Of a stretch of DNA of 64,000 nucleotides, positions 24,000 to 39,258 are shown piece by piece. This DNA is from Nocardia vinacea. Its GTDB lineage: Bacteria; Actinomycetota; Actinomycetes; Mycobacteriales; Mycobacteriaceae. Every line of letters begins with the position of its first letter. The first letter of the stretch is position 1. A program made the translations under genes and the position numbers. Below the pieces are notes generated by a model that saw only the letters and a program-made list of their open reading frames with translations, was not told where the DNA came from and did not search any database. The stretch lies in NCBI RefSeq assembly GCF_035920345.1, contig NZ_CP109149.1, positions 6,200,001-6,264,000 on the forward strand, given 5' to 3'.

Positions 24000-24053
24000 C
24001 CCATCGCCGGGCAGTTGACAACCGCCACGTCGCAGCACCCCCGTGAGCACAAC

Positions 24054-24395
24054 GGAGCGAGTCTTACGATCAACCCGTTCGCGGCCCGTCTCGCGTCCGA
24101 GTCGTCGAAGCGCATGCGCCGCACGCGTAGGGCTCGACCATCCGGCGCGTGTGCATTGGGTGCTGAACGACCTGCCATCAGTGACCCCGACGGAGCGAGT
24201 CTTACGAGCGACCCGTTCGCGACCCGTCTCGCGTCCGAGTCGTCGAAGCGCATGCGCCGCACGCGTAGGGCTCGACCATCCGGCGCGTGTGCATTGGGTG
24301 CTGAACGACCTGCCATCAGTGCCCCCAACGGAGCGAGTCTTACGAGCGACCCGTTCGCGGCCCGTCTCGCGTCCGAGCCGTCGAAGCGCATGCGA
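24054..24395. repeat. 138-bp tandem repeat, about 2.5 copies
   Basis: Units begin at 24054, 24192 and 24330 with GGAGCGAGTCTTACGA and repeat with an exact 138-bp period; the third unit diverges after about 65 bp into the hairpin element. The first two are nearly identical. The period is a multiple of three, so long spurious reading frames run through them. It fills most of the 495-bp gap between espG and ppk2. Confidence 0.9.
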
Positions 24396-24466
24396 CGAAG
24401 TCGCGAGTCTCGACGGCTCGGACGCGAGACACAGGGGGCCGTGAACACGCCGCGCCGAAGGCGCGG
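24352..24466. repeat. Covarying hairpin element, copy 1
   Basis: Outer arms CGTTCGCGGCC and GGCCGTGAACACG enclose 21-bp arms (24364-24384 with 24410-24430, perfectly complementary), a 25-nt loop holding an inner GCGAC-GAA-GTCGC hairpin, and a 3' hairpin CCGCGCC-GAA-GGCGCGG (24450-24466). Two related copies are at 37779-37893 and 39141-39252. Confidence 0.85.
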
Positions 24467-24494
24467 CAATCAGACAGAGCCATAAGATACATCG

Positions 24495-25340
24495 ATGGCG
24501 AAGAAATGGTCTCTGCCGCCCATCGAGGCCTTGCGGGCCGATGGCTTGCGTATCGCTGATCTCGATGCCTCCGGTACGCCCGGATTCAAAGGTGGCAAGA
24601 AGCAGGCCCAGAAGCTGCTCACAGAACGTGCAGGCGTGCTCTCGGATCTGCAGGAGAAGCTCTACGCCAACGGCCGTTCCGGCGATACCCGCAGCGTGCT
24701 GCTGGTGCTGCAGGGGATGGATACCGCAGGCAAGGGCGGCATCGTCCGCCACGTCATCGGTTCGGTGGATCCGTCGGGCGTCGACCACGCCTCCTTCGGT
24801 GTTCCGACCGGGGAGGAGAAGAGCCACCACTACCTGTGGCGCATTCGCAAGGAACTGCCGCGCGCCGGCCAACTCGGCGTCTTCGACCGCTCGCACTACG
24901 AGGATGTGCTGGTCGTGCGGGTGCACAATCTGGTGCCGCCGGAGGTCTGGGAACCGCGCTACGACGAGATCAACGCCTTCGAGCGGGAACTGGTCGACCA
25001 GGGCACCACGCTGGTGAAAGTCGCCATGTTCGTCTCCCTCGACGTGCAGAAGGAGCGGCTGCGCGAACGGCTGGACCGACCGGATAAATACTGGAAGTTC
25101 AACCCCGCCGATATCGACGAACGCGGCTACTGGCCCGCCTATCAAGAGGCCTACCAGGTCATGCTGGACCGCACCTCGACCGACTACGCCCCATGGCATG
25201 TGCTCCCGGCCGACCACAAGTGGTTCGCCCGCCTCGCGGTCACCGAACTGCTGATCGACGCACTCGACGGGCTGAAACTCGACTGGCCACCGGCCTTATT
25301 CGATGTCGAGGAGCAACAGCGCCGCCTCACCGAAGCCTGA
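24495..25340 (+). CDS. ppk2: Polyphosphate kinase 2 family protein
   Basis: A 281-aa PPK2 enzyme, which transfers phosphate between polyphosphate and nucleotides. The Walker A motif is GMDTAGKGG (about residues 75-83), Walker B/lid region is GVFDRSHYEDVLVVRVHN, and the C-terminal YWKFNPADIDERGYWPAYQEAYQ and DYAPWHVLPADHKW are typical of single-domain PPK2. The polar N-terminus has no signal. Whether it prefers AMP, ADP or NDPs cannot be told from sequence. The tandem-repeat/hairpin region lies directly upstream. Confidence 0.94.
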   Translation: MAKKWSLPPIEALRADGLRIADLDASGTPGFKGGKKQAQKLLTERAGVLSDLQEKLYANGRSGDTRSVLLVLQGMDTAGKGGIVRHVIGSVDPSGVDHASFGVPTGEEKSHHYLWRIRKELPRAGQLGVFDRSHYEDVLVVRVHNLVPPEVWEPRYDEINAFERELVDQGTTLVKVAMFVSLDVQKERLRERLDRPDKYWKFNPADIDERGYWPAYQEAYQVMLDRTSTDYAPWHVLPADHKWFARLAVTELLIDALDGLKLDWPPALFDVEEQQRRLTEA

Positions 25341-25466
25341 CCAAGGTTCCTCTCAGGTTGACCACGGATGATGTGGCCGTGCCCGTCCACGCCCCGGGGG
25401 AGCTCCGGATCTACCATCGTGGCGGCAGGTAACCGGCAGGCAAGCGAAAGGCGTGGTGAACGCACG

Positions 25467-26240
25467 GTGAGCAATAAACCGGGTGGTAAAACGAATCCGC
25501 TCGCGGCGGCGGAGCGCGCCGACCGCAACCGCAAGATCCTCATCCAGGTGGGTGTCGCCGTCGTGCTGGTCGGGCTCATCGCAGCGATCGGCATCGGTAT
25601 CGCGGTGAAGAACGCAAACAAGAACGATCTGGGCGCCACCCCGTCCATCGCCGCCACCGCGAGCCAACTGCCCAATGGCGCCACCGCGACCATCACCGAT
25701 AACGGCGCGGTCCGCATCGGCAAGCCGGATGCGAAGGTGACCGTCCGCGTCGTCGCCGACCTGCAGTGCCCGGCCTGCAAGGGCTTCGAGGCCGCCAACG
25801 CCAAGGTCATCAAGGATGCCGTCGACAATGGCACGGCCATCGTCGAATACAACATCATCTCGTTCCTGGACAAGGCCTCCACCACGAAGTACTCCTCGCG
25901 CGCGGCCAATGCGGCGTATTGCGTCGCCGAGGCGGATCCGTCGAAGTACCTCGACTGGCTGACCACCATGTACACACAGCAGCCCGCTGAGGGCAGTGCG
26001 GGCCTGACCGATGACCAGCTGATCGATGTCGCGAAGGGCGCGGGCGTTCCGGATTCGGTCGGGCAGTGCATCAAGGACAACAGCTACAACAAATACATCG
26101 GGGCCAAGACCAAGGACGTGCTGAACAGCGGCATCCAGTCGACCCCGACGGTCTTCGTCAACGGTAAGCAGATCCAGTCCAGCCAGGAGCTGATGACCCC
26201 CGGCGGCCTCGCACCCGCGATCGCCGCCGGAGGCCAGTGA
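25467..26240 (+). CDS. DsbA-family membrane-anchored thioredoxin-fold protein
   Basis: A 257-aa disulphide oxidoreductase, anchored by one N-terminal helix (about residues 28-50) with the thioredoxin domain outside the membrane. The active site is CPACKGFE near residue 102, and the cis-Pro region is STPTVFVNG. It probably introduces disulphides into exported proteins. Its stop overlaps the start of the VKOR gene (GTGA), and the pair corresponds to mycobacterial Rv2969c/Rv2968c, where VKOR reoxidises the DsbA-like partner. The GTG 25467 start is chosen from protein similarity. Confidence 0.92.
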   Translation: MSNKPGGKTNPLAAAERADRNRKILIQVGVAVVLVGLIAAIGIGIAVKNANKNDLGATPSIAATASQLPNGATATITDNGAVRIGKPDAKVTVRVVADLQCPACKGFEAANAKVIKDAVDNGTAIVEYNIISFLDKASTTKYSSRAANAAYCVAEADPSKYLDWLTTMYTQQPAEGSAGLTDDQLIDVAKGAGVPDSVGQCIKDNSYNKYIGAKTKDVLNSGIQSTPTVFVNGKQIQSSQELMTPGGLAPAIAAGGQ

Positions 26241-26803
26241 ACAGCGCGACATCCAGGGCCGCCTGGGTGTTGCTGATCGGCGGGCTGGCCGGGTGGCTCG
26301 CCTCGGTCACGCTGACCATCGAGCGGTTCAAGCTGTTCACCGATCCGAACTACCGGCCCTCGTGCAGCATCAACCCGATCCTGTCCTGTGGCAGCGTGAT
26401 GGCCACCGAACAGGCCGCCAAATTCGGATTTCCCAATCCGATCATCGGCATCGTCGGCTTCTCGGTGGTTGTCACCCTCGCGGTGCTCGCGGTCGCCAAT
26501 GTGCGCTTTCCGCGCTGGATCTGGGGCGGACTGTGGGTGGGGACCGTGCTCGGCACGGTCTTCATCTGCTGGCTGATCTTCCAGAGCCTGTACCGGATCG
26601 GCGCGCTGTGCCCGTACTGCATGGTGGTGTGGGCGATCATCACGCCGCTGCTCGCGGTGGCCACCGAGCAGGTGTGGGGTGGTGCGCGCGGACCGATGCG
26701 GATCGTCGTCGAGTGGCGGTGGACGTTCGTCGCGGTGTTCTACGCCGTGGTGCTGCTGCTGATCTTCCTGAAGTTCCAGGATTACTGGCTGTCGCTGGTC
26801 TAG
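26237..26803 (+). CDS. VKOR family disulphide-forming membrane protein
   Basis: A 188-aa bacterial vitamin K epoxide reductase homologue with about five membrane helices. It transfers electrons from the DsbA partner to quinone. The loop pair CSINPILSCGS (about residues 43-53) and the active-site CPYC near 127 are present. It is translationally coupled to the DsbA-like gene. Its stop TAG shares a CTAG with the stop of the convergent protease gene. Confidence 0.93.
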   Translation: MNSATSRAAWVLLIGGLAGWLASVTLTIERFKLFTDPNYRPSCSINPILSCGSVMATEQAAKFGFPNPIIGIVGFSVVVTLAVLAVANVRFPRWIWGGLWVGTVLGTVFICWLIFQSLYRIGALCPYCMVVWAIITPLLAVATEQVWGGARGPMRIVVEWRWTFVAVFYAVVLLLIFLKFQDYWLSLV

Positions 26804-27921
26804 TTCGGTGTGCCCAGCGCGAGCACCACGGTGATCGTGCGCTGCACTCCGCCGATGCCGAGGACACCCAGCTGAACGATGTCATCCGGCTTGTGCACAT
26901 TGATCGCGCCCCGCAGCGCCTTCGCGGTGGTGATGCCACGGCCGTCGATCGAGGTGATGACATCGCCATCGACGAGTCCGGCGGCGTAGGCCGGTAATCC
27001 GTACAGTGCGACATCGATCTTCGCCCCGCTCGGTTTCGCATCGGAGATCAGTACGCCGAGCGTCGCGGTCGGCCCGATGTGCACAGTTTCGGTGGGCGTG
27101 CCGGAACGGATCTGGCCCACGACCCGCATCGCGGTGTCGATCGGCACCGCATAGCCGTTCGGGGTGCGCCCGACCTCACGTGAGGTTTCGCCCGACGCGG
27201 CGGTGATCACGCCGACCACCGTGCCACCGGGATCGGCGAGCGCACCGCCGGACTGTCCCGCGGTGACCGGCGCCGCGATCTCCACCATCCCGGTCAGCGA
27301 TTTGCGGGTCAGATCGGAGGCATTGAGCGCGACGATCGTGCTGTTCAGATCGGTGATATTGCCCGGGATCGAGGTCGGCGTGCCGCCCGCGCCACCCGCA
27401 TTACCGATGGCGAGCACATCCTCGTGCACGCGCAGCTCGGCGGAGCGGCCGATGCGTGCGGTCGTCAGATCGGTGGCACCGGTGAGTTCCAGCAGCGCGA
27501 TATCCGCACCGGCGTCGTAGCCGAGCACCGTCGCGTCGTAGACGGTGCCGTTGCCGACATCGGTGACCGACACGGTTTCGGCGCCCTTGACCACATGATG
27601 GCTGGTCAGCACCTGTCCATCGGCGGTCAGCACGATCCCGGATCCGGCCGCGCCGAGTCCGAACGGCCGCGCGGACGTGCTGATATTCACCAGTGCCGGT
27701 TCTACTGCCTGCGCGACCGCCACCGGATCCAGCGGCGGCAGCGGCTCGAGCAGGGCGGGCGGGGAGTTGTCCGCACCCGAGGGCGACGACCAGTCGGGCA
27801 GTTCACCGCGGAAACCGAAGAAGGCGGCCACGGCGAGCAGGACGGCCGCGAACAGCGCCAGCGCCCGCCCGCCACTGTCTACTCGCCGCCCCTCGGGCGG
27901 GCGGTGCCGCTCGTCGTCCAT
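26800..27921 (-). CDS. HtrA-like S1C serine protease with PDZ domain
   Basis: A 373-aa membrane-anchored trypsin-like protease. The N-terminal helix (about residues 17-35) anchors it, followed by the protease domain with the catalytic triad in TSHHVVKG, GADIALLEL and TAGQSGGAL, and a C-terminal PDZ domain (LPAYAAGLVDGDVITSIDGRGI). GQSGG replaces the usual GNSGG. It probably degrades or processes misfolded envelope proteins, which fits the adjacent disulphide-forming pair. GGGAGAG precedes ATG 27921. The long upstream open frame on this strand is not part of the gene. Confidence 0.93.
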   Translation of the reverse strand: MDDERHRPPEGRRVDSGGRALALFAAVLLAVAAFFGFRGELPDWSSPSGADNSPPALLEPLPPLDPVAVAQAVEPALVNISTSARPFGLGAAGSGIVLTADGQVLTSHHVVKGAETVSVTDVGNGTVYDATVLGYDAGADIALLELTGATDLTTARIGRSAELRVHEDVLAIGNAGGAGGTPTSIPGNITDLNSTIVALNASDLTRKSLTGMVEIAAPVTAGQSGGALADPGGTVVGVITAASGETSREVGRTPNGYAVPIDTAMRVVGQIRSGTPTETVHIGPTATLGVLISDAKPSGAKIDVALYGLPAYAAGLVDGDVITSIDGRGITTAKALRGAINVHKPDDIVQLGVLGIGGVQRTITVVLALGTPN

Positions 27922-28030
27922 ACCGCTCTCCCGCCGCCGGCTGGGCCCTTGACCAATTCCATTGTGGCCGGAGATCTTTATTCGGCGAAGCGTTTGGCAA
28001 TCCTCCGCATGCGGCGGTAGGCATGTACGC

Positions 28031-28111
28031 ATGAGCGAACGCAGTGAGCGAACCATGACGCAGCGCGCAACGCGCATGCCGAAGCCGAGCGCCAGCGAGG
28101 CGCAGGCATGA
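28031..28111 (+). CDS. 26-codon mini-ORF (MSERSER family) coupled to adhC
   Basis: A tiny open frame encodes a peptide beginning MSERSERT and ending PSASEAQA. Its TGA overlaps the adhC ATG as ATGA. A second member at 52358 begins MSERSERT and ends PSAGEAQS, also overlapping the next gene as ATGA, and a third starts at 57838. The conserved ends and junction suggest a translated coupling leader, not chance. No function is known. Confidence 0.5.
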
Positions 28112-29160
28112 GCGTTGCTGCTGCGTATGCGATGTCCGCGCCCGATGGGCAATTCGAGAAACTCATGATCGAGCGGCGCGAGCTCGGACCGCGCGATGTG
28201 CTGATAGATGTCAAATACGCGGGTATCTGCCACTCCGATATCCACACCGCCCGCGACGAATGGGGCAGCGCCAAATACCCGTGCGTCCCCGGGCACGAGA
28301 TCGCGGGCATTGTCGCCGCGGTCGGTCCGGAGGTGTCCAAGCATCAGGTCGGCGATCGGGTCGGCGTCGGCTGCATGGTCGATTCCTGCGGCGTCTGCGG
28401 TCCATGTCTGGCCAATGAGGAGCAGTACTGCGACAACGGCGCCACCATGACCTACAACACCCAGGTGGACTCCTCCATCCAGCCGGGTGGGTACACAATG
28501 GGCGGCTATTCGACCCAGGTCGTGGTGACCGAGAACTTCGTACTGTCGATTCCGGAGGGCATCGGACTCGATGTGGCGGCACCGCTGCTGTGCGCGGGCA
28601 TCACGCTGTTCTCCCCGCTGCGGCACTGGAATGCGGGGCCGGGTAAGAAGGTCGCGATCATCGGCATGGGTGGACTCGGGCACGTCGGGGTGAAGATCGC
28701 CGCGGCGATGGGGGCCGATGTCACCGTGCTGAGCCATTCGCTCAGCAAGCAGGACGACGGCAAACGCTTCGGCGCGCACCACTACTACGCGACCGGCGAT
28801 AAGCAAACCTTCCGCGAGCTGCGCAACCGCTTCGATCTGATCCTCAATACGGTCTCGGCCGATCTGCCGATCGACAGCTACCTGCGCCTGCTGAAGCTGG
28901 ACGGCACCCTGGTGATCCTCGGCATACCCGAGAACCCGTTGAGCGTCAGATCTTTCATCCTCGCCGGATACCGGCGGGCGCTGGCCGGCTCGATGATCGG
29001 CGGTATCGCACAGACCCAGGAGATGCTGAACTTCTGCGCCCAACACGGAATCGGCGCGGAGATCGAGCTGATCTCGGCCGACGAGATCGATGGCGCCTAC
29101 GACCGGGTCGTCGCGAGCGATGTGCGGTACCGGTTCGTGATCGACGCCGCAACGATCTAG
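28108..29160 (+). CDS. adhC: Zinc-dependent NAD(P)-linked alcohol dehydrogenase AdhC
   Basis: A 350-aa medium-chain dehydrogenase of the cinnamyl-alcohol-dehydrogenase type, like mycobacterial AdhC (Rv3045). Catalytic zinc ligands lie in AGICHSD (Cys) and PGHEIAG (His-Glu); structural zinc cysteines are in [15 protein letters not shown]. The cofactor site is [17 protein letters not shown] near residues 185-200. It reduces aldehydes to alcohols, physiological substrate unknown. A mini-ORF precedes it with a 4-nt overlap. Confidence 0.94.
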
Positions 29161-29206
29161 TCCGTGTCGTTGCGCCGATTCGTCGCCGGTTCAGTAGCTT
29201 GGCGAT

Positions 29207-30409
29207 GTGTCTGCGGATGAAGAGCAATCCCCACCCGCCGAAACGGCGGCGGTCACCGCCGATGTGACCGCGGGGCCGCCGCCGTGGCTGTTGCGGGCGT
29301 TCCTGCTCGCGGCGGCGACGGTGGCCGGGCTGGTATGCGGCTTCTGGATTCTGCAGAAACTGCAGGGTTTCATACTGGTGCTGCTGGTTTCGCTGTTCCT
29401 GGCCTTCGCCATCGAGCCGGCGGTGAATTGGCTTGCGGCGCGCGGTGTCCGGCGCGGACTGGCGACCGGGGTGGTGTTCGTAGTGTTGGCCGTCGGCACC
29501 GCCGCATTCGTGTGGACGCTCGGCGCGCTGCTGGTCGATCAGGTCACCACCCTGGTCAAGAACGCGCCCGAACATGCGGATCAGGCCGTCGACTGGGTGA
29601 ATCGCACCTTCAAAGCCGATCTGTCCAGCAGCGATATCCAGAAGTACCTCGGCGACTGGAGTTCCACCATCGACGGCTATCTGGTCGGGTTGGCGGGCAA
29701 TGCCTGGGGCGTCGGCACCGCCGCGATCGGTGCGATTTTCCAGGCACTCGGCGTGCTGTTGTTCACCTACTACTTCGCCGCCGACGGACCGCGCTTCCGC
29801 AATGCGGTCTGCTCGCTGCTGCCGCCACACCGCCAGCGACATGTATTGCGCGCCTGGGATATCGCCGTCGACAAGACCGGCGGCTATATCTATTCGCGCG
29901 GACTGCTCGCACTGTGCTCGACGATCGCGCACTATGTCGCACTGCGCATCCTCGATGTGCCGTCCGCATTCGCCCTCGCGCTGTGGGTCGGTGTTGTCTC
30001 GCAGTTCATTCCGACCGTCGGCACCTATCTCGCCGGTGCGCTGCCGGTGCTGGTCGCGCTGGTGCACGGACCGTCCACCGCGCTGTGGATTCTGGGCTTC
30101 ATCGTGGTGTACCAGCAGTTCGAAAACTATGTCCTGCAACCGAGGATCACCGCGACCACGCTGGATATGCATCCGGCCGTGGCATTCGGCGCGGTCATAG
30201 CGGGTGCGGCGATACTCGGGCCGACCGGTGCGCTGCTGGCGATTCCGGTCACCGCGACGGTGCAGGCATTCGCGGGCGCCTACATCCGTCGCTATGAGGT
30301 CGAGGCGGACAGCAATACCGAAACGCCCGAGGGGCCGCCGAAGAAGCAACAAAAGTGGTTGCGCCAGTTGACCATTCGCCTCAGCGGCAGCGGTCGGCCA
30401 CCGGAGTGA
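29207..30409 (+). CDS. AI-2E family transporter
   Basis: A 400-aa polytopic membrane protein of the AI-2E (PerM/YdgG-like) family with about seven to eight helices. Typical features are the N-terminal FWILQKLQGFILVLLVSLFLAFAIEPAVNWLA, the FTYYFAADGPRFR segment, and the C-terminal SQFIPTVGTYLAGALPVLVAL and QQFENYVLQPRI. Transport substrates differ among members, and AI-2 should not be assumed. It starts at GTG 29207. It converges with the acyltransferase gene with no gap. Confidence 0.92.
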   Translation: MSADEEQSPPAETAAVTADVTAGPPPWLLRAFLLAAATVAGLVCGFWILQKLQGFILVLLVSLFLAFAIEPAVNWLAARGVRRGLATGVVFVVLAVGTAAFVWTLGALLVDQVTTLVKNAPEHADQAVDWVNRTFKADLSSSDIQKYLGDWSSTIDGYLVGLAGNAWGVGTAAIGAIFQALGVLLFTYYFAADGPRFRNAVCSLLPPHRQRHVLRAWDIAVDKTGGYIYSRGLLALCSTIAHYVALRILDVPSAFALALWVGVVSQFIPTVGTYLAGALPVLVALVHGPSTALWILGFIVVYQQFENYVLQPRITATTLDMHPAVAFGAVIAGAAILGPTGALLAIPVTATVQAFAGAYIRRYEVEADSNTETPEGPPKKQQKWLRQLTIRLSGSGRPPE

Positions 30410-31693
30410 TCATTCAATCCGCTGTAGTGCATCGATCAGCGCCAAGCTGACCTTGCCCATCTGGGCGCGGCTGTGCAGGACGGTGTCGTACTCGACCTGG
30501 ATGGTCAGGCGTCCGCCGATGGTGAAGACGGTGAGCTTCGGCGGCATGCCGGGGCCCATGGCGTAGACGTCGTCGCGAATGTGACGGATACCGTTCGGGA
30601 TCGAATGTGCTGGCAGGCGACCGATATTGGAGATAGCGACGGTCGGCGAGGCCGCGAAGATCGCGGCGGTCGCCTCGTCCTGGACGCGCTGCGAGGCGAG
30701 TAGAAATATGGGAGCTTGGCGCTGCTCCAGTGCGGCCGCCATGCCCGCGGCCACCTCGTATGCGACCTCGATCGGGCCCGCGTTCTCGGCGACGAGCGCG
30801 GGGGTGCCCGCGCCGGAAGCGCAATTCAGGATCGCGTGCGCGGGCAAGTTCAGCTCGGATCGCACATCCACCGCGTGGCCGCAAAACACCGGAAGCGTTC
30901 CCGTCGCGGGTTCGAGTTGGGAGCGGACTGCGACGAGTGCGGCGCCGGCGAGCAGGCTGTTGACCGAAAGCCCGCGCGCACGAGCGGCGTCGACCAGGTT
31001 CTGGGTTTCCTTGGTATCCAGTTCGATTCGCTGCACCGCGAACCGGCCGAGTGGATCGTCGCCGCTCCCGTCGATCGGTAGGGTGCGCGGAGCCGATTCC
31101 GGCCCTACCAGCGAGGCCACCGTCCGGATCTGGTCAAGCGACTCGGCGACCTCCACATCCGAGACCACCGCGGCGAGTTGGATATCGATGCCCTCGGGCA
31201 ATTCCTGATCGAAATCCGACTGCGGCAGTGCGGTTCCCGTCGCACATGCGGTGTAGCGCTGCCACAGCTGCGCGAGCAGCGCGAAAGCCGATCTGCCATC
31301 GGCGATTCCGTGATGGATGACCAGGACGATTTGATCGCGGTCGCCGTCGCGGAGCAGATGGGCGCGGAACAGGCCGTCGCGCCAATCCCGTGGTCCGTTG
31401 ACCAGATTCAGGTACTCGGCTTCACCGCCGTCGGTGATCTCGAGGTGGGGCCGGTAGGCGTCGTCCCGGCGCAGATACAGCGTGCCGTCGGCATCGGCCA
31501 CCGGCTTGCTGCGCAGCAGTGGATGCTGGGCAGCGAGTTCGTCGAGCACCCGGCGCAGGATCTCGACATCCAGCAGTCCATGCACGGTGGAACCGATGAA
31601 CAGCGGCATACCGCCGGTCGGCACGCTGCCGAGTCGGGTTTCGGAGCCGAAGAAGGTCAGCTCGAACGGAGAAATCGGTCGCTGTGCGGTCAT
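30410..31693 (-). CDS. PapA5-like acyltransferase / condensation-domain protein
   Basis: A 427-aa protein of the condensation-domain acyltransferase superfamily. The catalytic motif HHGIADG lies near residue 127. The closest type is the polyketide-associated protein PapA5, which esterifies phthiocerol with mycocerosates in mycobacteria, so transfer of a fatty acyl group to a lipid alcohol is likely. Upstream is a divergent TetR gene and a shared region dense in direct and inverted repeats. Confidence 0.85.
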   Translation of the reverse strand: MTAQRPISPFELTFFGSETRLGSVPTGGMPLFIGSTVHGLLDVEILRRVLDELAAQHPLLRSKPVADADGTLYLRRDDAYRPHLEITDGGEAEYLNLVNGPRDWRDGLFRAHLLRDGDRDQIVLVIHHGIADGRSAFALLAQLWQRYTACATGTALPQSDFDQELPEGIDIQLAAVVSDVEVAESLDQIRTVASLVGPESAPRTLPIDGSGDDPLGRFAVQRIELDTKETQNLVDAARARGLSVNSLLAGAALVAVRSQLEPATGTLPVFCGHAVDVRSELNLPAHAILNCASGAGTPALVAENAGPIEVAYEVAAGMAAALEQRQAPIFLLASQRVQDEATAAIFAASPTVAISNIGRLPAHSIPNGIRHIRDDVYAMGPGMPPKLTVFTIGGRLTIQVEYDTVLHSRAQMGKVSLALIDALQRIE

Positions 31694-31741
31694 TGGTCGT
31701 CTCGTACTTCCGTGTGGTGGAGCAGGTTACGCCCTCAACAT

Positions 31742-31801
31742 ACAGATGTTTCAAACGCTTGTCACAAACACTTGTTTGAAATACGTGTCACAAACAGATG
31801 T
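31742..31801. promoter_or_regulatory. Operator region between PapA5-like and TetR genes
   Basis: It contains two ACAGATGT copies (31742-31749, 31794-31801), two TGTCACAAACA copies (31760-31770, 31786-31796), and an inverted pair TTTCAAAC/GTTTGAAA (31749-31756, 31774-31781). Position between divergent genes, one a TetR regulator, argues for joint repression. Confidence 0.6.
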
Positions 31802-31817
31802 ATGCCACGCTGATAGG

Positions 31818-32384
31818 GTGGGAACCCGAGAAGATCTGCTCGCCGCAGCCAAGCAGTGCCTGGCCGAACGCGGGTATGCGCGCACGACCGTGCGGGATAT
31901 CGTGGCCGCCTCCGGCACGAATCTGGCCGCCATCAACTACCACTTCGGCACGCGCGACAAACTGCTCAACCAGGCGATGATGGAATCGAGCGCGGATGCG
32001 GTACAGCAGATCCTCGAATCACTGCCCGCGCACGATGCCGAGGATCCGGCCGCCCGCCTGCGCGATTTCCTGCACCAGTTGATCACCTCGTTCACCGAGA
32101 ATCGCGCCCTCTGGTCGGCCAATGCCGAAAGCCTGACGCAGGCGCTGCACTCCCCCGAACTGCGCACCGAATTCGGCACCGCGCAGGCGCAGGCACGCGA
32201 CGGACTATCCGACTTTTTCGGGCCTGGTGCGCAGGACCCGCGCATCGGCGCCATCCTGCAAACCATGATCGGCGGCCTGCTGATACAACACCTGGTCGAC
32301 CCGGACCAGGCCCCCACCGCCACCGATATCACCGCGGGTCTGCGCACCCTCGCCACCCTGCTCCCAGCTGACGGCGGGACATAG
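31818..32384 (+). CDS. TetR family regulator
   Basis: A 188-aa TetR regulator with the helix-turn-helix in the first 50 residues (EDLLAAAKQCLAERGYARTTVRDIVAASGTNLAAINYHFGTRDKLL). The C-terminal ligand domain is typical in length. It begins at GTG 31818 and probably represses itself and the divergent PapA5-like gene through the repeats between them. Confidence 0.9.
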   Translation: MGTREDLLAAAKQCLAERGYARTTVRDIVAASGTNLAAINYHFGTRDKLLNQAMMESSADAVQQILESLPAHDAEDPAARLRDFLHQLITSFTENRALWSANAESLTQALHSPELRTEFGTAQAQARDGLSDFFGPGAQDPRIGAILQTMIGGLLIQHLVDPDQAPTATDITAGLRTLATLLPADGGT

Positions 32385-32414
32385 CCGCCGCATCGTCGCC
32401 TAGGCGTGCTTCCG

Positions 32415-32461
32415 GGTGGTCCCGCTCCGGGCGCGCTCTGCGCGCCCGAATAGCGACCACC
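32415..32461 (+). terminator. Terminator after TetR gene
   Basis: An inner perfect 8-bp stem GGGCGCGC-TCT-GCGCGCCC (32429-32447) is enclosed by GGTGGTC/GACCACC (32415-32421, 32455-32461), 30 bp after the TetR stop. Confidence 0.7.
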
Positions 32462-32528
32462 GCGTCGGGCCGACATCGCGAACACCCAGCGAACTGGCTG
32501 CGCGAATATCGCATCGCGCTGGCGGCGG

Positions 32529-33278
32529 GTGACAGATGCTGGACCGATGGCGATTCTGCTTGCGCTGGTATCGATGTGCTCGACGCTGGTCGGCGGGCTG
32601 GTGGCGGTGCGGATCGGCGACCGCAAACATCTGGTGCTGGGGCTGGCGGCGGGGGTCATGTTGGGTGTGGTGTTCTTCGACCTGCTGCCGGAGGCATTGG
32701 AGCAGTCGGGGGATATCGTGCTCGGTGTCCCGGCGGCGCTCGTCGCCACCGTGGGCGGCTTTGTCACCATCCACGTCATCGAGCGCGCGGTCGCCATCCA
32801 TACCGGCCATGAAGGCGAATTCGGTTCGCACAAGCACGGTTTCGAATCCGTCGGGCTGGTCGCGGCGGCCGGGCTGATCTTCCACAGCACCCTCGACGGT
32901 CTCGGCATCGGATTGGGTTTCCAAGCTGGAGCCACCGTCGGCATCGCGGTCGCCATCGCCGTCATCTGTCACGACTTCGCCGACGGCTTCAACACTTTCA
33001 CCATCACCAGGCTGTACGGCTCTGCCCACAGACGCGCATTGATCCTGCTCGCCCTGGACGCCATCGCCCCCGTCATCGGTGCGGTAATCGGCACCGTCAT
33101 CCAGGTTCCGGCCGGGACCGTCGGCCTCTACCTCGGCTATTTCGCCGGATTCCTGCTCTACCTCGCCACCGCCGACATCCTCCCCGAGGCCCACGCCGAA
33201 CACCCGTCTCGCCTGACCCTGGCCTGTACCGTCACCGGCGCGACGTTCATGCTCGTCGTGGCCGCGCTCAGCCACTGA
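32529..33278 (+). CDS. ZIP family metal transporter
   Basis: A 249-aa ZIP transporter with about eight membrane helices. The His-rich loop (HTGHEGEFGSHKHG) lies between helices III and IV, and the metal path motifs HSTLDGLGIG (helix IV) and CHDFADGFNT (helix V) are present. It likely imports Zn2+ or another divalent metal. Start GTG 32529 or ATG 32547 cannot be settled. It converges with the LLM oxidoreductase gene at 33285. Confidence 0.9.
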   Translation: MTDAGPMAILLALVSMCSTLVGGLVAVRIGDRKHLVLGLAAGVMLGVVFFDLLPEALEQSGDIVLGVPAALVATVGGFVTIHVIERAVAIHTGHEGEFGSHKHGFESVGLVAAAGLIFHSTLDGLGIGLGFQAGATVGIAVAIAVICHDFADGFNTFTITRLYGSAHRRALILLALDAIAPVIGAVIGTVIQVPAGTVGLYLGYFAGFLLYLATADILPEAHAEHPSRLTLACTVTGATFMLVVAALSH

Positions 33279-33284
33279 CCAGCG

Positions 33285-34172
33285 TTAGCCGAGTTGCGGC
33301 AGCACCTCTCGAGCCACCCAAGCCATGGCGTCCGCGAATGCGGGACCGGGTACCGGCAGCCAGATCGAGCAGGCCTGGAGTCCGGCCTCGTGCAGGACCC
33401 CGAGTTCATCGACAATGCTTGCGGCCGTTGGCTGCCCGCCACCGAGCAGCCGCCCCGGATCACGGCTGATGGCGGTGAATCCGGGTGGGACCACGAAGGC
33501 CACCGAGGTCAGTCGCAGCTGCCGCTCGATACCGGATGCTTCGGCGAGTTCGGTGAGACGTTTGCGGATTCGGTGCAGTTCGGCGGGATCGGCGACCGGA
33601 CCGTGCCATGCGCTGCCGAAGCGCACGGCTCTGCGCAGTGCGGCATCGCTCTGCCCGCCGACCCACACCGGCGGTCCACCGACAGTGCGCGGCGCGATAC
33701 CGATTCGCGGCTCGGACTCACCCCGCCACAACGATGTCAGTACTTCCAGATGCTCGCCCGTGCGCTTGCCGCGTTCCTCGAACGGAACCCCGACCGCATC
33801 GAATTCGGCACGGTCCCAGCCTGTTCCGATGCCGAGCGTGAATCGCCCACGGGACAGTCGGTCGAGTGTCGCGGTCTGATGGGCCAAGACGACCGGGTTG
33901 TACAGCGGCAGGATCAGCACGCTGGTCGCGATGCCGATGCGCGAGGTCGCACCCGCGATGGCCGACAGCATGATCAGCGGCTCATGTGTGACACCCAGGT
34001 CACCGGCGAGCACATGACTGCCGGCGACAATGTGGTCGAAGCCCAATTGCTCTGCGGTACGCGCGGTTTCGACGATATCGTCGAGTTCGCCGGCCTTCCC
34101 GGGCCATAACCCATGCGGTGCGATACCGAGCCGAAGGCTCTTGCTCTCACCGACTGTTTCTTCCAAAGGCAT
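33285..34172 (-). CDS. LLM class F420-dependent oxidoreductase
   Basis: A 295-aa TIM-barrel flavin/F420-type oxidoreductase. Seen features: LGFDHIVAGSHVL near the N-terminus, RIGIATSVLILPLYNPVVLAHQTATLDRLSRGRFTLGIGTGWDRAEFDAVG and PPVWVGGQSDAALRRAVRFGSAWHG, all characteristic of the luciferase-like family. F420 is the usual cofactor in actinobacteria. The substrate is unknown. Start ATG 34172 follows from similarity. It lies 161 bp downstream of the TetR gene on the same strand. Confidence 0.9.
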   Translation of the reverse strand: MPLEETVGESKSLRLGIAPHGLWPGKAGELDDIVETARTAEQLGFDHIVAGSHVLAGDLGVTHEPLIMLSAIAGATSRIGIATSVLILPLYNPVVLAHQTATLDRLSRGRFTLGIGTGWDRAEFDAVGVPFEERGKRTGEHLEVLTSLWRGESEPRIGIAPRTVGGPPVWVGGQSDAALRRAVRFGSAWHGPVADPAELHRIRKRLTELAEASGIERQLRLTSVAFVVPPGFTAISRDPGRLLGGGQPTAASIVDELGVLHEAGLQACSIWLPVPGPAFADAMAWVAREVLPQLG

Positions 34173-34333
34173 GGGCGTTGGCTCCCGATTCCGGTCCCGA
34201 TAGAGGTGACGCCGGGCTCCCTGTCTATTCACCGCGCACCCGGTACACCCGGTGCCTGGTTGGTGGACGAGTTGCCCGGTCCATCAGATCAACATCGACA
34301 GTCGCCCCCCGATTCCGGCGGAGACTCGGCCGG

Positions 34334-34900
34334 TCAGCGAGCGATTGCGCGCAGCACAGCATCGACCGACTGGTCGGCGAGGGTTTCGGTCAGCGGCAGG
34401 TGGCCGAAGAGGGCGCGGTAGTAGATCGGGGCGGCGACCGTGTCGAGGACGAAATCGAGATCGATACCCGGATCGATCTCGCCTCGATGGATTGCCGACT
34501 CCAGGGCGATCGCGGTGGTTCGCCTGCGTGGTTCGAAGACCGTCGCCAGGAAATGCGCGCGTAGATCCGGGTCGTTGGCGAGATCCGCTACCAACGCGGG
34601 CAACACATGGCTCAGCGAGGTATCGCATAGTGCGGCAACGAGATTGCGCATCGCGATAGTTAGATCGGCACGCAGGTCACCGGTGTTCGGTGTTGGTTGC
34701 AAACCCAGCAGGTCGGCGACGACATCGACAACGAGGTGGCGTTTGGAGGGCCAGCGGCGGTAGATCGCCGGGCGGTGCAGACCGGCTCTGGCCGCCACCT
34801 GGCCGATGGACAGTTCGGCATAACCGTTCTCGTCCAACAGCTCTCGCGCTGCGGCGAGTACCGCGGTGTCGATGCGGTCGTCGCGCGTGCGTCCCGGCAT
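34334..34900 (-). CDS. TetR/AcrR family regulator
   Basis: A 188-aa regulator with an N-terminal helix-turn-helix (IDTAVLAAARELLDENGYAELSIGQVAARAGLHRPAIYRRWPSKRHLV) and a TetR_C_11-like C-terminal domain. The ATG overlaps the VOC gene stop as TGATG, so it is co-translated. The perfect palindrome upstream of the VOC gene is its likely operator. Confidence 0.92.
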   Translation of the reverse strand: MPGRTRDDRIDTAVLAAARELLDENGYAELSIGQVAARAGLHRPAIYRRWPSKRHLVVDVVADLLGLQPTPNTGDLRADLTIAMRNLVAALCDTSLSHVLPALVADLANDPDLRAHFLATVFEPRRRTTAIALESAIHRGEIDPGIDLDFVLDTVAAPIYYRALFGHLPLTETLADQSVDAVLRAIAR

Positions 34901-35319
34901 CAGAACACCGGACGCGGCATCAGAACGACTCGCCAACCGTCCGGATCCGGAAAGGTCAAGCCGCCGTTGGCCGCCCAATACGGATTCTCGGCGGGCACCG
35001 GCTCCACCCCGAATTCACCGAGGCGCTGTGCGACGTCGTACATCTGGGTTTCGGTCGAGAAATAGAGCACCAGCAGGTTTTCCGCGCTCGGCGCATCGCC
35101 GGGACTTCCGTCCACGTGGGTGGTGAACTCCAGGTGATATCCGGTCCCGGGCAATCCGAGCATCACGCCGTCGTAGCCCGCGTGATTTTCGAATCGGTAG
35201 AGCTCGCGCAGTCCCAACCCCTCGACGTAGAACCGCACGACCTCTACCAACCGATCGGTGGGCCTGGCAATTCGAACCTGGACCACCGGCAACGACTCGG
35301 GCCATGTCTGCTCAGCCAT
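34900..35319 (-). CDS. VOC/glyoxalase-bleomycin resistance family protein
   Basis: A 139-aa vicinal oxygen chelate protein with two beta-alpha-beta-beta-beta units: VRIARPTDRLVEVVRFYVEGLGLRELYRFE... and a second half ending LTFPDPDGWRVVLMPRPVF. Metal-ligand candidates are His (GYHLEF) and the C-terminal segment. The reaction cannot be predicted. It is the first gene of the VOC-TetR operon, with a TetR-type palindrome immediately upstream. Confidence 0.9.
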   Translation of the reverse strand: MAEQTWPESLPVVQVRIARPTDRLVEVVRFYVEGLGLRELYRFENHAGYDGVMLGLPGTGYHLEFTTHVDGSPGDAPSAENLLVLYFSTETQMYDVAQRLGEFGVEPVPAENPYWAANGGLTFPDPDGWRVVLMPRPVF

Positions 35320-35329
35320 ATCTCAACGA

Positions 35330-35345
35330 TACAGTACGTACTGTA
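35330..35345. promoter_or_regulatory. Perfect 16-bp palindrome upstream of VOC-TetR operon
   Basis: TACAGTACGTACTGTA reads identically on both strands and ends 11 bp before the VOC start codon, covering the -10 region. It is a textbook TetR-type operator in position and symmetry. Confidence 0.75.
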
Positions 35346-35427
35346 CCGATTTGATATGGCATCCATCACCCGAGCCGCAAAGACCGCCGCCACGTCCGAG
35401 ACATGGCGGCGGCCTTCGTCTTCGGTA

Positions 35428-37734
35428 TTACTCCGTCGGCGTTGCCCGCCGACGAACACGGCGCGCGGCCGCGACCATATTGCGCAGCGAGGGCTCCAGC
35501 TGCCAGTAGTGCCGGGTCTTGAGTCCGCCGTCCGGATTCGCCCACAGGCGTTCCGGACTAACGGCTTCGGCTGCGGCCGTGAGCAATTCGTCGAGCTCAT
35601 CGATATCCGGGATCCGCGCCGAACGGCTCTCGTAGACACCGGGACCGACGCCGTGACTCAGGCCGTGACCCGATGCGAAGTCTTCCCTGAGCGCCTTCAA
35701 CACCCATTCGATCGAGCGGGTCGCCACGATCGCGGTGACATCGGCATCGAGCTCCTCGATCGCGTCGACCACCTCTGTGCGACCGGAATAGCCGATATGC
35801 GTGTGGATCTGGGTCTCCGGCTTGACACCAGAGGTGGCCAGACGGAATGCCGCGACCGCCCACCGCAGATATTCGGCGCGCCCCTGCGGACGCATGGGTA
35901 GCAGCTCGCGAATGGCGGGCTCGTCGACCTGGATGATCGAGATCCCGGCCCGTTCCAGATCCACGACCTCATCGCGAATGGCCAGCGCGACCTGATCAGC
36001 GGTCTCGAACAGCGGCTGATCCTGCCGCACGAACGAACGCGCGATCATGGTGACCGGACCGGTGACCATGCCCTTGACCGGTTTATCGGTCAGCGACTGG
36101 GCATAGCTGATCCACTCGACCGACATCGGCGCGGGCCGTGAAACGTCACCATAGATGATCGGCGGTCGCACACAACGGGATCCGTACACCTGCACCCAGC
36201 CGAAGTGGGTGGTCGCGAAGCCGTCGAGCAGCTCGGCGAAGTACTGGATCATGTCGTTGCGCTCGTGCTCACCGTGCACGAGCACATCGAGGCCGATGTC
36301 CTCCTGCAGGCGGATCGTGGCCTCGATCTCGGCCTCGATCTTCTTGCGGTATTCGTCGTAGGACAGTTTGCCCTGGCCCAGGTCGTAGCGGGCCTGACGA
36401 ATCTTGTTCGTCTGCGGGAAGGAACCGAGCGTGGTCGCGGGCACCGGCGGCAGATTCAGCTTGCGCTGCTGTGCTTCGCGGCGCACCTCGTACGGTTCGC
36501 GCGAGCGCATATCGGGCGTGATCGCGTAAACCCGTTGCCGCACCGCGTGTTTCTGCTTGAAGTGCACCTCGGTGGGCCGCTTGCGCCACTTGTCCGAGGG
36601 CCCCTCGGTAAGTGCCTTGGCGAGCGAAACCACCTCGCCCACCTTCTGCCTGGCGAAGGCTAGGCGGTCCGCGACATTGCCCTCGATATCGTATTCGGCG
36701 AGCACGTCATAGGGCACGTGCAGCAGCGTCGTGCCGGTGGACACCACGAGATCGGGGCACACCTTGGCCAGCTCGTTGAGGTATTCCAGTGTCACATAAC
36801 GGTCCGCGCGCCAGACATTGACACCGCTGATCACGCCCGCGTACAAGCGCTTACGTCGAATGCCGGGAATCTCGGCGAGCTCTTCCGGCTGGATCCGATA
36901 ACTGGCCAGATCCAGGCCGATGGCCTCGACATTGGTCTCGGCCAGAATGCGCAGCGCCTCACCGAAATCGCCGTACTGCCCGGTGACGAGCATGCGTGGC
37001 CGCAGCGCCGAGGTCGAAAGTCGTTGGTACGCACGCTCGAACGCGGCGAGTTCCGCAGGAGTGCGCTCGCTGGTGAAGCACGGCTCGTCCAACTGCACAC
37101 AGGTGGACCCGCGCTTGGCGAGGATTTCGAACAGCTCCTCGTACACCGGAAGCAGCTTGTCCAACAGGCTGAGCGTGTCGAAACCGCCTGTCTCACCGGG
37201 GATATGGCCCGCCTTGGACAGCAACAGCAGCGACACCGGGCCGACGACCACCGGGCGCAGCTCGATATCACCGGCCTTGGCGCGATCCCATTCGTCGAGC
37301 AAAGCCTCTGGGTGCAGCGAGAATTCGGTGTTCTCGTCGAGTTCGGGCTGGCGGTAGTGGTAATTCGTACCGAAGAACCGCACCAGCTCCAGCGGCGGCA
37401 GATCCGGACGACCGCGCGCCATCAGGAAGTAGAAGTCCAGCGGATGCAGCTCGTCCTGGTACGGCTTGAATCGCGCGGGCACCGCACCGAACAGCAGCGC
37501 ATTGTCGAGAATGTGGTCGTAGAAGGAGAAGGTGTTGCCCGGCACCTGGGTCAGACCGGTGGCGGCCAACCCGTTGTAATGCCGCTCCTGGATATCGCGC
37601 CCGACCGCGAGCAGTTCGTCGCGAGAAACCCCACCACGCCAATAGCCCTCGAGGGCCCGCTTGAGTTCCCGATGCGGCCCGATCCTCGGGTAGCCGAGAA
37701 TGCTCGACCCGTAACCGTCCTGAACGTTGACCAT
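35428..37734 (-). CDS. MetE-like protein lacking three of four zinc ligands
   Basis: A 768-aa full-length homologue of cobalamin-independent methionine synthase, which transfers the methyl group of methyltetrahydrofolate to zinc-bound homocysteine. Both barrels are intact (for example VHGEHERNDM, GWVQVYGSRCVRPP, IIQVDEPAIREL). However, of the E. coli zinc ligands His641, Cys643, Glu665 and Cys726, only the His is kept (His646); the others are Gly648 in HTHIGYS, Val670 in AIVATRS, and Gly736 in NPDGGLKTR. Ordinary catalysis is therefore unlikely. The start is ATG 37734; the longer frame upstream is repeat DNA. Confidence 0.9.
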   Translation of the reverse strand: MVNVQDGYGSSILGYPRIGPHRELKRALEGYWRGGVSRDELLAVGRDIQERHYNGLAATGLTQVPGNTFSFYDHILDNALLFGAVPARFKPYQDELHPLDFYFLMARGRPDLPPLELVRFFGTNYHYRQPELDENTEFSLHPEALLDEWDRAKAGDIELRPVVVGPVSLLLLSKAGHIPGETGGFDTLSLLDKLLPVYEELFEILAKRGSTCVQLDEPCFTSERTPAELAAFERAYQRLSTSALRPRMLVTGQYGDFGEALRILAETNVEAIGLDLASYRIQPEELAEIPGIRRKRLYAGVISGVNVWRADRYVTLEYLNELAKVCPDLVVSTGTTLLHVPYDVLAEYDIEGNVADRLAFARQKVGEVVSLAKALTEGPSDKWRKRPTEVHFKQKHAVRQRVYAITPDMRSREPYEVRREAQQRKLNLPPVPATTLGSFPQTNKIRQARYDLGQGKLSYDEYRKKIEAEIEATIRLQEDIGLDVLVHGEHERNDMIQYFAELLDGFATTHFGWVQVYGSRCVRPPIIYGDVSRPAPMSVEWISYAQSLTDKPVKGMVTGPVTMIARSFVRQDQPLFETADQVALAIRDEVVDLERAGISIIQVDEPAIRELLPMRPQGRAEYLRWAVAAFRLATSGVKPETQIHTHIGYSGRTEVVDAIEELDADVTAIVATRSIEWVLKALREDFASGHGLSHGVGPGVYESRSARIPDIDELDELLTAAAEAVSPERLWANPDGGLKTRHYWQLEPSLRNMVAAARRVRRRATPTE

Positions 37735-37778
37735 GAGCGGGGCCACTCCCTTTCGATCACCTGCGCTGTGTTCATTTG

Positions 37779-37893
37779 CCGCGCCTGCGGCGCGGCGTGT
37801 TCGCGGCCCCTGGTGTCTCGCGTCCGAGCCGTCGAGACTCGCGACTTCGTCGCATGCGCTTCGACGACTCGGACGCGAGACGGGCCGCGAACG
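37779..37893. repeat. Covarying hairpin element, copy 2 (minus orientation)
   Basis: 21-nt arms 37815-37835 and 37861-37881 pair with one mismatch around a 25-nt loop identical, as reverse complement, to copy 1; the CCGCGCC-TGC-GGCGCGG hairpin is at 37779-37795. It lies 45 bp upstream of the MetE-like gene in that gene's orientation. Confidence 0.85.
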
Positions 37894-38017
37894 GGTCGCT
37901 CGTAAGACTCGCTCCGTGGTGCTCACGTGGGTGCCGAACGGTGGCAGGCGTCCACGACAGCACGTCTTGAACAGCCTATGCCGCTGACAGCATCGGCTCT
38001 GTCTGATTTGCGGCTTA

Positions 38018-38887
38018 TCAGACCTTGTACTGGTAGAAGCCCGTGCCGGTCTTCTTGCCGAGCAGACCGGCCTCGACCATGCGCATCAGCAGCGGCGGCG
38101 CCGAATACAGCGGCTCCTTGAACTCCTGGTACATGGAGTCGGCGATGGACTTGACGGTGTCGAGGCCGACCAGGTCGGTGAGCGCCAGCGGACCCATCGG
38201 GTGGGCACAGCCGAGCACCATCGCCTTGTCGACGTCTTCCTTGGTGGCGAAGCCGGATTCGACCATCCGGATGGCCGAGAGCAGGTACGGCACCAGCAGC
38301 GCGTTCACCACGAAACCGGAGCGGTCGGCCGAGCGCACGACCTGCTTGCCGAGCACATCGCCGGCGAAACCCTCGGCCCGTGCGGATACCGCTTCACTGG
38401 TCTTCAGTGTGGTGACCAGCTCGACCAGCGGCAGCACCGGCACCGGGTTGAAGAAGTGCATGCCGACCACCCGCTCCGGGTTGGCGGTGGCGACAGCGAT
38501 CTTCATGATCGGGATGGAGGAGGTGTTGGAGGCCAGCACGGCGTCCGGATCGGTGACCACCTTGTCGAGTTCGGAGAAGATGGCGGTCTTGACCTTCTCG
38601 TCCTCGAGCACCGCCTCGACCACCAGCTGGCGGTCGGCGAAATCGCCGAGGTCGGAGGTGAACCGCAGCCGCCATGCGGCCTGTTCGCGCTCGCGCTCGG
38701 TGATCTTGCCGCTGCTGACGCCGCGGTCGAGCGAGCGCAGGATGCGGGCGCGACCTGCCGCGGCTAGCTCCCGAGTCTGTTCGTAGACGAGCACGTCGAT
38801 ATGCGCCCGCGCACACACCTCCGCGATTCCTGCACCCATCTGTCCGGCACCGATGATGCCGACGCGCTGAATCTTCTCGCTGCTCAC
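38018..38887 (-). CDS. fadB2: 3-hydroxybutyryl-CoA dehydrogenase FadB2
   Basis: A 289-aa NAD(P)-dependent 3-hydroxyacyl-CoA dehydrogenase. The dinucleotide site is VGIIGAGQMGAGIAEVCARAHIDVLVYE (residues 9-36), the catalytic SxHxxxP region is GMHFFNPVPVLPLVE, and LGKQVVRSADRSGFVVNALLVPYL and GCAHPMGPLALTDLVGLD complete the family pattern. It acts in beta-oxidation or butyryl/PHB metabolism. GTG 38887 has AGGAG 7 nt upstream. In M. tuberculosis fadB2 (Rv0468) follows icl1, as here. Confidence 0.95.
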   Translation of the reverse strand: MSSEKIQRVGIIGAGQMGAGIAEVCARAHIDVLVYEQTRELAAAGRARILRSLDRGVSSGKITEREREQAAWRLRFTSDLGDFADRQLVVEAVLEDEKVKTAIFSELDKVVTDPDAVLASNTSSIPIMKIAVATANPERVVGMHFFNPVPVLPLVELVTTLKTSEAVSARAEGFAGDVLGKQVVRSADRSGFVVNALLVPYLLSAIRMVESGFATKEDVDKAMVLGCAHPMGPLALTDLVGLDTVKSIADSMYQEFKEPLYSAPPLLMRMVEAGLLGKKTGTGFYQYKV

Positions 38888-38982
38888 GTCCCGCTCCTGC
38901 TGTTTTTGTCTGGCTGTCGGGTGGCTGATGGCGAAGGACGCTCCGATAAGAGCCGACCTTCGATGGTCCAAGGTATAGGGAT

Positions 38983-39016
38983 GCCCTCCCGGCTGGGGCT
39001 GTTCAGCCGGGAGGGC
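38983..39016 (-). terminator. Strong terminator between aceA and fadB2
   Basis: Perfect 13-bp stem GCCCTCCCGGCTG/CAGCCGGGAGGGC with an 8-nt loop, about 100 bp upstream of the fadB2 start. It implies aceA and fadB2 are separate transcription units. Confidence 0.8.
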
Positions 39017-39140
39017 GGTACACCCCTACTGGAGTAGAGGATTAGCGGTATTCACGTCGGGAACCTCAATTCCCTGTGCAAACACGGTGTGGCGACGTCG
39101 AGGGCTTCCGTAACCCCGTACGGGGCGAGCCCGACGAGCC

Positions 39141-39252
39141 CGTTCGCGGCCGGCTCGCTTCCGAGTACTCGAAGCGCATGCGCCGAAGGCGCGAGTCTCG
39201 AGTGCTCGGAAGCGAGCCTTGGGGGCCGCGAACACGCGGCGCGGAGCGCCGC
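39141..39252. repeat. Covarying hairpin element, copy 3
   Basis: 21-nt arms (39152-39172 with 39198-39218, one mismatch), a 25-nt loop with inner GCGCC-GAA-GGCGC, and a 3' hairpin GCGGCGC-GGA-GCGCCGC (39236-39252). Arm sequences differ from copies 1 and 2 but still pair. It abuts the aceA stop codon. Confidence 0.85.
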
Positions 39253-39258
39253 CATGTA

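Follow-up and report, generated by a model that had tools for sequence, protein, structure and literature searches.

Several families of hairpin-forming repeats resemble the Nocardia element reported here, and the cited papers describe them as follows. REPINs are doublets of REP sequences that form hairpins, are mobilized by RAYT and are proposed to fold as single strands (PMC3116915). ERIC and YPAL elements are long intergenic palindromes of 100-170 bp whose mobilizer is unproven, and ERIC has 7-bp terminal repeats, TA ends and a target duplication (PMC2229807). The GTAG and CGTC REP superfamilies comprise small palindromes of 20-40 bp that bear a conserved unpaired tag, and for the CGTC type there is no dedicated transposase (PMC3733652). 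NEMIS/Correia and RUP, which are miniature inverted-repeat transposable elements, are hairpin repeats of 100-150 bp with terminal inverted repeats and a TA-ended target duplication (PMC2229807). We analyzed a 64,000-nucleotide stretch of the Nocardia vinacea genome (NZ_CP109149.1, positions 6,200,001 to 6,264,000; hereafter the window) and found that three hairpins within it are copies of a dispersed, non-coding repeat of about 150 bp. By analogy, this repeat would work like REPINs or ERIC; we claim membership in neither.

Like REPINs as PMC3116915 presents them, the Nocardia repeat is a non-coding hairpin of about 100 bp that lies outside genes, is dispersed in many copies and occurs in clusters. 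It differs in having three hairpins instead of two REPs, in that its copies are not tied to a transposase gene, and in that no RAYT-type gene was found in its own genome, which yielded only two IS605-type Y1 matches. Nor is its layout that of two inverted REPs with a 5′ tetranucleotide tag; one long hairpin stands between two unlike mini-hairpins. With ERIC and YPAL it shares the long intergenic palindrome and the unproven mobilizer, but none of the ERIC end features is present at its one near-clean junction and the host is different, the comparison being one of descriptions. ERIC elements are known to carry internal insertions, as the Nocardia repeat does inside its arms. The GTAG and CGTC REPs are likewise small palindromes with a conserved unpaired tag, and the CGTC type likewise has no dedicated transposase, but they are far shorter and have no three-hairpin architecture; a word search of the text of PMC3733652 found mention of neither Nocardia nor Actinobacteria. 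The resemblance to NEMIS/Correia and RUP is one of size and hairpin form, whereas their terminal inverted repeats and target duplication are unseen in the Nocardia repeat, whose 5′ end (ACCACNACGG...) and 3′ end (...AAACACAG) are non-complementary as judged by eye. Literature searches on Nocardia repeats and related families, with incomplete coverage of subscription papers, turned up no description of this repeat.

The original prediction had placed three hairpin elements in the window, and they are present at the positions and in the orientations that it gave. Each copy is longer than it had stated, since it overlooked two conserved parts, the 5′ mini-hairpin GCGAGTCTTACGAGC and the 3′ tail, and the outer pairing it described is real but has longer arms (GTTCGCGGCC/GGCCGCGAAC), with one G.T in element 1. 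From 5′ to 3′, the repeat begins with the end ACCACNACGG and the mini-hairpin, continues with the long hairpin, made of outer arms GTTCGCGGCC/GGCCGCGAAC, inner arms of about 21 bp and the conserved core GAAGCGCATGCGNCGNNGNCGCGAGTC, and closes with the small 3′ hairpin and a tail ending about ...AAAYMAAACACAG; it also has an asymmetric spacer a few bases long ahead of the 3′ hairpin. Within the long hairpin the outer arms and the core are conserved and the inner arms are very variable. The outer pair of the 5′ mini-hairpin covaries among 177 copies (GC 126, CG 21, TA 13, GT 2, other 4, no motif 11). Elements 1 and 2 are full copies at 24321-24483 (plus strand, 167.8 bits with the covariance model) and 37762-37924 (minus strand, 166.1 bits), and element 3, at 39113-39269 (plus strand, 140.1 bits), is a divergent copy with the inner arm GGCTCGCTTCCGAG...; these model bounds were converted from locus coordinates and take in a few flanking bases per end. 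In element 1, all on the plus strand, the mini-hairpin occupies 24333-24347 and the main hairpin 24353-24446, with outer arms at 24353-24363/24436-24446 and inner arms at 24364-24384/24410-24430, between which lies the core; the small 3′ hairpin with a C[GAA]G triloop follows at 24450-24466, and the tail CAATCAGACAGAG at 24467-24479. As single strands, elements 1, 2 and 3 fold at -97.4, -96.6 and -89.5 kcal/mol (z -9.6, -8.5 and -7.3), a stability reached by 0 of 200 dinucleotide shuffles.

The genome (10.36 Mb, single contig) contains about 49 full copies. A 27-base core pattern with at most 3 mismatches matched it 61 times, 47 of them exactly, compared with 0 for the reversed control, and a covariance model run over 50 loci of this genome gave 48 matches of at least 67.6 bits, plus an interrupted copy in locus L092. 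A DNA search in which five candidates were scored per genome detected the repeat in 116 of 148 genomes of the genus. The covariance-model search proposed in the original prediction found it in 137 of 146, including its own genome, with 118 at E<1e-10. Among 201 genomes drawn from 31 genera of the family, searched with strict filters that may lose weak matches, there were 15 matches, of which 13 lay inside the genus and the other two had E values of 7.5e-4 and 9.5e-4. Neither viral contigs, searched with the exact core pattern, nor phages matched the repeat, and a plasmid search returned one match, in a 2.66-Mb Nocardia farcinica record listed as a plasmid. The copies are concentrated in the origin half of the genome: 42 of 49 are no more than a quarter genome away from dnaA (p=4e-7 if the chromosome is taken as circular). 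Away from dnaA, a 3.4-Mb stretch of the genome (1.53-4.9 Mb) is without a core-pattern match, and some free-standing 3′ modules sit in it. The 3′ module also occurs alone elsewhere (28 pattern matches in the genome versus 0 in the control, 14 of them away from listed copies). By eye, Nocardia jinanensis, N. fusca and N. caishijiensis (L121, L123 and L129) have elements that are built alike and resemble the repeat in their 3′ hairpin and tail but differ in their outer arms, which read about GGTCGGGGCC/GGCCCCGACC; they are weak matches to the model (28-42 bits).

Pairing is conserved across the family. In an alignment of 32 diverse copies, made independently of any structure model and with no correction for kinship, 98.8% of stem cells pair, compared with 87.9% in shuffles and 25-42% in slid structures. 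Twenty-four of the 42 pairs have changed on both sides (9.8 in shuffles), the covariation score is 0.305 (0.090 in shuffles), and in divergent genomes entire arms have been swapped for others that still pair. The original prediction had taken the differences in the arms, inner stem and 3′ stem of the window copies as compensatory changes under selection for structure. All of these differences are real and the pairing is indeed conserved, but differences among three copies are by themselves no proof, and the inner-stem switch is a polymorphism swapped between copies.

The mismatches in the stems carry information on the strand concerned. For a duplex palindrome alone, G.T and A.C mismatches are expected to be equally frequent. 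In 54 copies from other genomes, G.T outnumbered A.C by 37 to 9 (21 copies versus 3, p=0.0003), and a second set of 41 divergent copies from ten genomes gave 30 versus 5 (20 copies versus 1, p=2e-5). These counts omit columns 28 and 35 and the pairs of the 5′ mini-hairpin; with the two columns kept, the counts are 76 versus 3 in the N. vinacea copies and 104 versus 9 in the others. Because the wobbles are one-sided, one strand seems to be kept foldable, and the constraint seems to fall, whether in RNA or in single-stranded DNA, on the strand that leads from GCGAGTCTTACGAGC to ACACAG. Covariation and strand-specific wobble are what a structured RNA would have, and they are equally expected of a folded single-stranded DNA.

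Comparison with a close relative (genome G117) revealed turnover both within and between sites. From 27 matched sites we used the 12 that hold a full copy in the same orientation in both genomes and dropped the other 15; the 3′ flanks of the 12 average 97.3% identity (96.6-98.6%). Twenty stem-pair changes separate these orthologous copies, of which 18 kept pairing (nine from Watson-Crick to Watson-Crick and nine with a wobble) and two broke the pair; substitutions that break pairing as often as they keep it, named at the outset as the pattern that would speak against a structural reading, were thus absent. Seven of the nine Watson-Crick changes are one inner-stem A-T/C-G switch, the same as that among the window copies. 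Its two states are divided 22 to 21 among the N. vinacea copies and differ at 7 of the 12 orthologous sites; at another polymorphic pair the two genomes differ in 6 of the 12. Orthologous copies, at 95.0% identity, are scarcely closer to each other than cross-species pairs that are not orthologous, at 93.9% (a value as high arose in 79 of 5000 permutations). Since the inner-stem state differs at 7 of 12 sites with such similar flanks, it appears to be exchanged among copies, and gene conversion among copies would be the simplest reading of these sequences.

Empty sites in relatives had also been suggested as informative, and one near-clean case was found: a copy (L026) stands opposite an empty site in G117 (L230), with no target-site duplication at the junction, although G117 keeps a 3′ mini-hairpin there; other sites have rearranged flanks. 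Elsewhere the element lies in opposite orientation within the same intergenic region (L006 versus L237, L021 versus L241), and in the metE intergenic region of G117 it sits at another place and in the orientation opposite to element 2. Further differences comprise loss of a palindrome (L089 versus L242), a deletion between two GCGAGTC repeats (L003 versus L231) and absence of both array and element (L030 versus L219). Upstream of the PPK2 gene, N. vinacea and G117 have full copies, and the common 3′ junction recurs in G009 and G045 with different element ends; in these two only the right-hand part or the 3′ hairpin is visible, their contigs ending there.

Copies are also placed in a distinctive way with respect to genes. 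Where an opposing gene lies at the 3′ end, its stop codon falls within 20 bases in 19 of 20 N. vinacea rows; the exception, L210, has insertions in its arms. In other genomes the distance is at most 22 bases for 34 of 40 cases, which include orthologous sites and G117 copies common with N. vinacea and are not independent. On the 5′ side, the nearest stop is 30 bases away (29 N. vinacea rows) or 25 bases away (48 others). The gene calls came from a codon-usage script trained on seven window open reading frames (ORFs) and not from a gene finder. By eye, several copies (e.g. L005, L021 and L022) seem to provide the stop codon from their own tail, and near aceA the tail abuts the same stop codon in three species (N. 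vinacea, L104 and L107). The location of the 3′ end at stops may reflect either target choice or selection against other insertions.

Of 163 copies, 138 have C[GNA]G at the inner hairpin tip, with all four bases occurring mid-loop, and 113 have it at the 3′ tip, again with a free middle base; both are lower bounds, taken from the best hairpin per fixed stretch and the commonest types, and at least one copy (L051, identical to L300) is counted twice. According to PMC4686876, GNA loops with C-G closure form exceptionally stable DNA mini-hairpins. As the tips are mostly of this type and copies lie in every orientation to genes, we favor DNA over RNA as the folded strand.

The sequence comparisons point, with about even probability, to a REPIN- or ERIC-like mobile repeat of about 150 bp that is specific to Nocardia, non-coding and non-autonomous and would act as a folded single strand. 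This reading draws on its dispersal, on the way close species differ in its presence, orientation and deletions, on homogenization, covariation and one-strand wobble, and on the 3′ end at gene boundaries. The unit of selection would be the folded single strand itself: an exposed strand would fold into three hairpins, an enzyme may recognize the conserved 5′ mini-hairpin, the core loop and the 3′ hairpin and tail, and the same enzyme would place the 3′ end at the edge of a coding region, leaving no duplicated target. Gene conversion between copies would then spread matched arm variants. A more detailed version, rather doubtful, is that of a genus-wide selfish single-stranded DNA repeat with three hairpins, GNA tips and a tandem G.A 5′ mini-hairpin, whose arms drift while one strand folds and whose 3′ end a putative Nocardia single-strand recombinase inserts at stops; genes would therefore rarely be damaged. 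The earlier suggestion that the hairpins might be transposition ends seems not to hold. The elements look like dispersed repeats themselves and not like the ends of a larger transposon, because the four close inverted pairs inspected in other genomes flank the housekeeping gene guaB3 and not a transposase; a composite transposon was considered for these pairs, 1.3-1.5 kb apart in G052, G007, G081 and G096, and rejected, all four flanking guaB3 (named by eye).

Several observations weigh against a mobile folded strand. In other sets of copies the wobble excess is slight or absent: G.T versus A.C is only 7 to 3 in 48 N. vinacea copies with the two dominant columns omitted, 1 to 1 in 14 G117 copies and 6 to 1 in 20 nearer copies. 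When each combination of column and pair type is counted once, the excess in the sets of 54 and 41 copies shrinks to 21 versus 8 (p=0.02) and 12 versus 5 (p=0.14), which indicates that shared ancestry contributes to it. The copies were moreover found and aligned by a model of this strand, which tolerates G-U better than A-C. The L026 junction is the only near-clean empty site, with its leftover 3′ mini-hairpin, the element-free PPK2 site in G134 is clean on the 3′ side only, and a fresh insertion that replaced the copy at a site would mimic gene conversion and is an alternative to it. GNA triloops also occur outside DNA. No mobilizing enzyme was found, a search of the genome for Y1_Tnp giving two matches, both to an IS605-type element. 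IS200/IS605-type lagging-strand targeting predicts a replication-strand bias; none was seen, 23 of the 49 copies being codirectional with the fork, which contradicts such targeting.

The IS605-type element was considered as the mobilizer and rejected, since its ends are unrelated and neither locus has a repeat motif. The two matches (L246 and L247, at 2.76 and 8.51 Mb of the genome) are assigned to an IS605-type element because L247 adjoins a TnpB-like ORF, as judged by eye, and the copies share 852 bp at 99.4% identity, a similarity suggesting that the element may have moved recently; one copy of this tnpA/tnpB element has a full-length tnpB-like ORF and the other a truncated one. Regarding a reverse transcriptase route, four RVT_1 matches were found, all outside repeat-bearing regions. 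The Y2 transposase profile of IS91/Helitron-like elements (PF04986) had no match in the genome, and none in its control genomes either.

The main competitor to a mobile single-stranded DNA is a structured RNA, that is, a dispersed small RNA or untranslated-region element made from the folding strand, such as an RNase III substrate or mRNA-stability element that spread as NEMIS or ERIC did. We regard this as possible but distinctly less probable. It predicts the covariation and the one-strand G.T preference just as well, and of 40 codirectional downstream starts in other genomes, 16 fall at -13 to +22 bases from the 3′ end. Yet no Rfam family reaches its gathering cut-off anywhere in the window, and over 37700-39300, which holds elements 2 and 3, the best sub-threshold matches attain 8-39% of the cut-off and are mostly to miRNA models. 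Orientation to neighboring genes is mixed (19 (+,+), 11 (-,+), 10 (-,-) and 10 (+,-) in 50 N. vinacea rows, L095 appearing twice), at opposing stops the mRNA of the gene would bear the unconstrained strand, and the loops are mostly GNA triloops and not GNRA or UNCG.

Two further accounts dispense with a folded single strand as the object of selection. Hairpin-templated correction of quasi-palindromes together with gene conversion between copies might keep the palindromes matched, producing paired changes with no stepwise compensation; gene conversion is indicated by the data, and deletions between GCGAGTC direct repeats and palindrome losses were observed. Neither process, however, predicts an excess of G.T over A.C on one strand, and the conserved unpaired core, the GNA tips, the 5′ mini-hairpin, the tail and the placement of the 3′ end are left unpredicted, so we consider this account improbable. 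Least probable is recognition as duplex DNA, the repeat being either a binding site for a nucleoid or regulatory protein or an insulator of transcription where genes end. The placement at gene ends and the origin-half enrichment (42 of 49 copies) would suit it, but recognition of a duplex would keep the sequence whereas the inner arms turn over completely, and strand asymmetry would be unexpected. An insulator or terminator is further disfavored because in none of the three window copies does a U-tract follow the 3′ hairpin, whichever strand is read: these hairpins are followed by CAATCAGACAGAG-type tails, with no T-run on the other side.

The surroundings of the window copies are as follows. 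Element 1 lies between an EspG-family gene and a PPK2 gene (both Pfam); the EspG-family gene and adjoining ORFs at 22642-23999 appear by eye to be ESX-type secretion surroundings. Ahead of element 1, at 24043-24318 on the plus strand, are two tandem partial units, each consisting of the 5′ part of the element and a linker with a period of 138; Tandem Repeats Finder reports the array as 24043-24394 (period 138, 2.6 copies, 95% matches), the last part of which merges into element 1. Similar partial units in varying number precede other copies (e.g. L003, L007, L008, L029 and L030), and the L003 array is absent in G117. Other small hairpins are inserted in the left or right arm of L085, L087, L092, L210, L214 and L215. 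By eye, a second small repeat (GCCGCTAGCGACTGCTTGCAGGTCGCTCGAAAGGG and relatives) occupies one right-arm place in L087, L092, L210, L214 and L215 and is also seen in L182, upstream of PPK2, and a stretch similar to it stands free in G053. Element 2 is upstream of metE and on the same strand, and the tail of element 3 reaches into the stop codon of an opposing isocitrate lyase gene (39259-40614, minus strand; Pfam ICL). From direct reading of the sequence, GCCGCAAATCAGACAGAGCC at 37995-38014 (minus strand) is likely a remnant of another 3′ end; it lies 3 bases from the stop codon of a 3-hydroxyacyl-CoA dehydrogenase gene. The best named records for this dehydrogenase gene, which neighbors elements 2 and 3, come from N. 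beijingensis and N. niwae, at 97% identity in a comparison from which the window's own record may be missing. At 31747-31796, between two divergent genes of which one is TetR-like by eye, a 26-bp direct repeat (TGTTTCAAACACGTGTCACAAACACT, 1.9 copies) looks like a putative operator of a regulator. At 23906-24485 and 35428-37926, open frames cross the element on both strands, including a GTG frame that joins element 2 to metE; such frames could yield spurious protein annotations or wrong metE starts.

Our findings suggest that most of the genus Nocardia carries an apparently undescribed, high-copy structured repeat. Since paired changes are exchanged between sites, covariation in any repeat family should be interpreted with care. 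The repeat allows three questions to be tested: how large hairpin repeats can spread when they have neither terminal repeats nor a RAYT, how they come to insert at stop codons, and how constraint on single-stranded DNA can be told from constraint on RNA by wobble bias and loop type. With the 138-bp tandem units standing in varying number and one array missing from G117, these arrays, together with the copies themselves, could serve as strain-typing markers.

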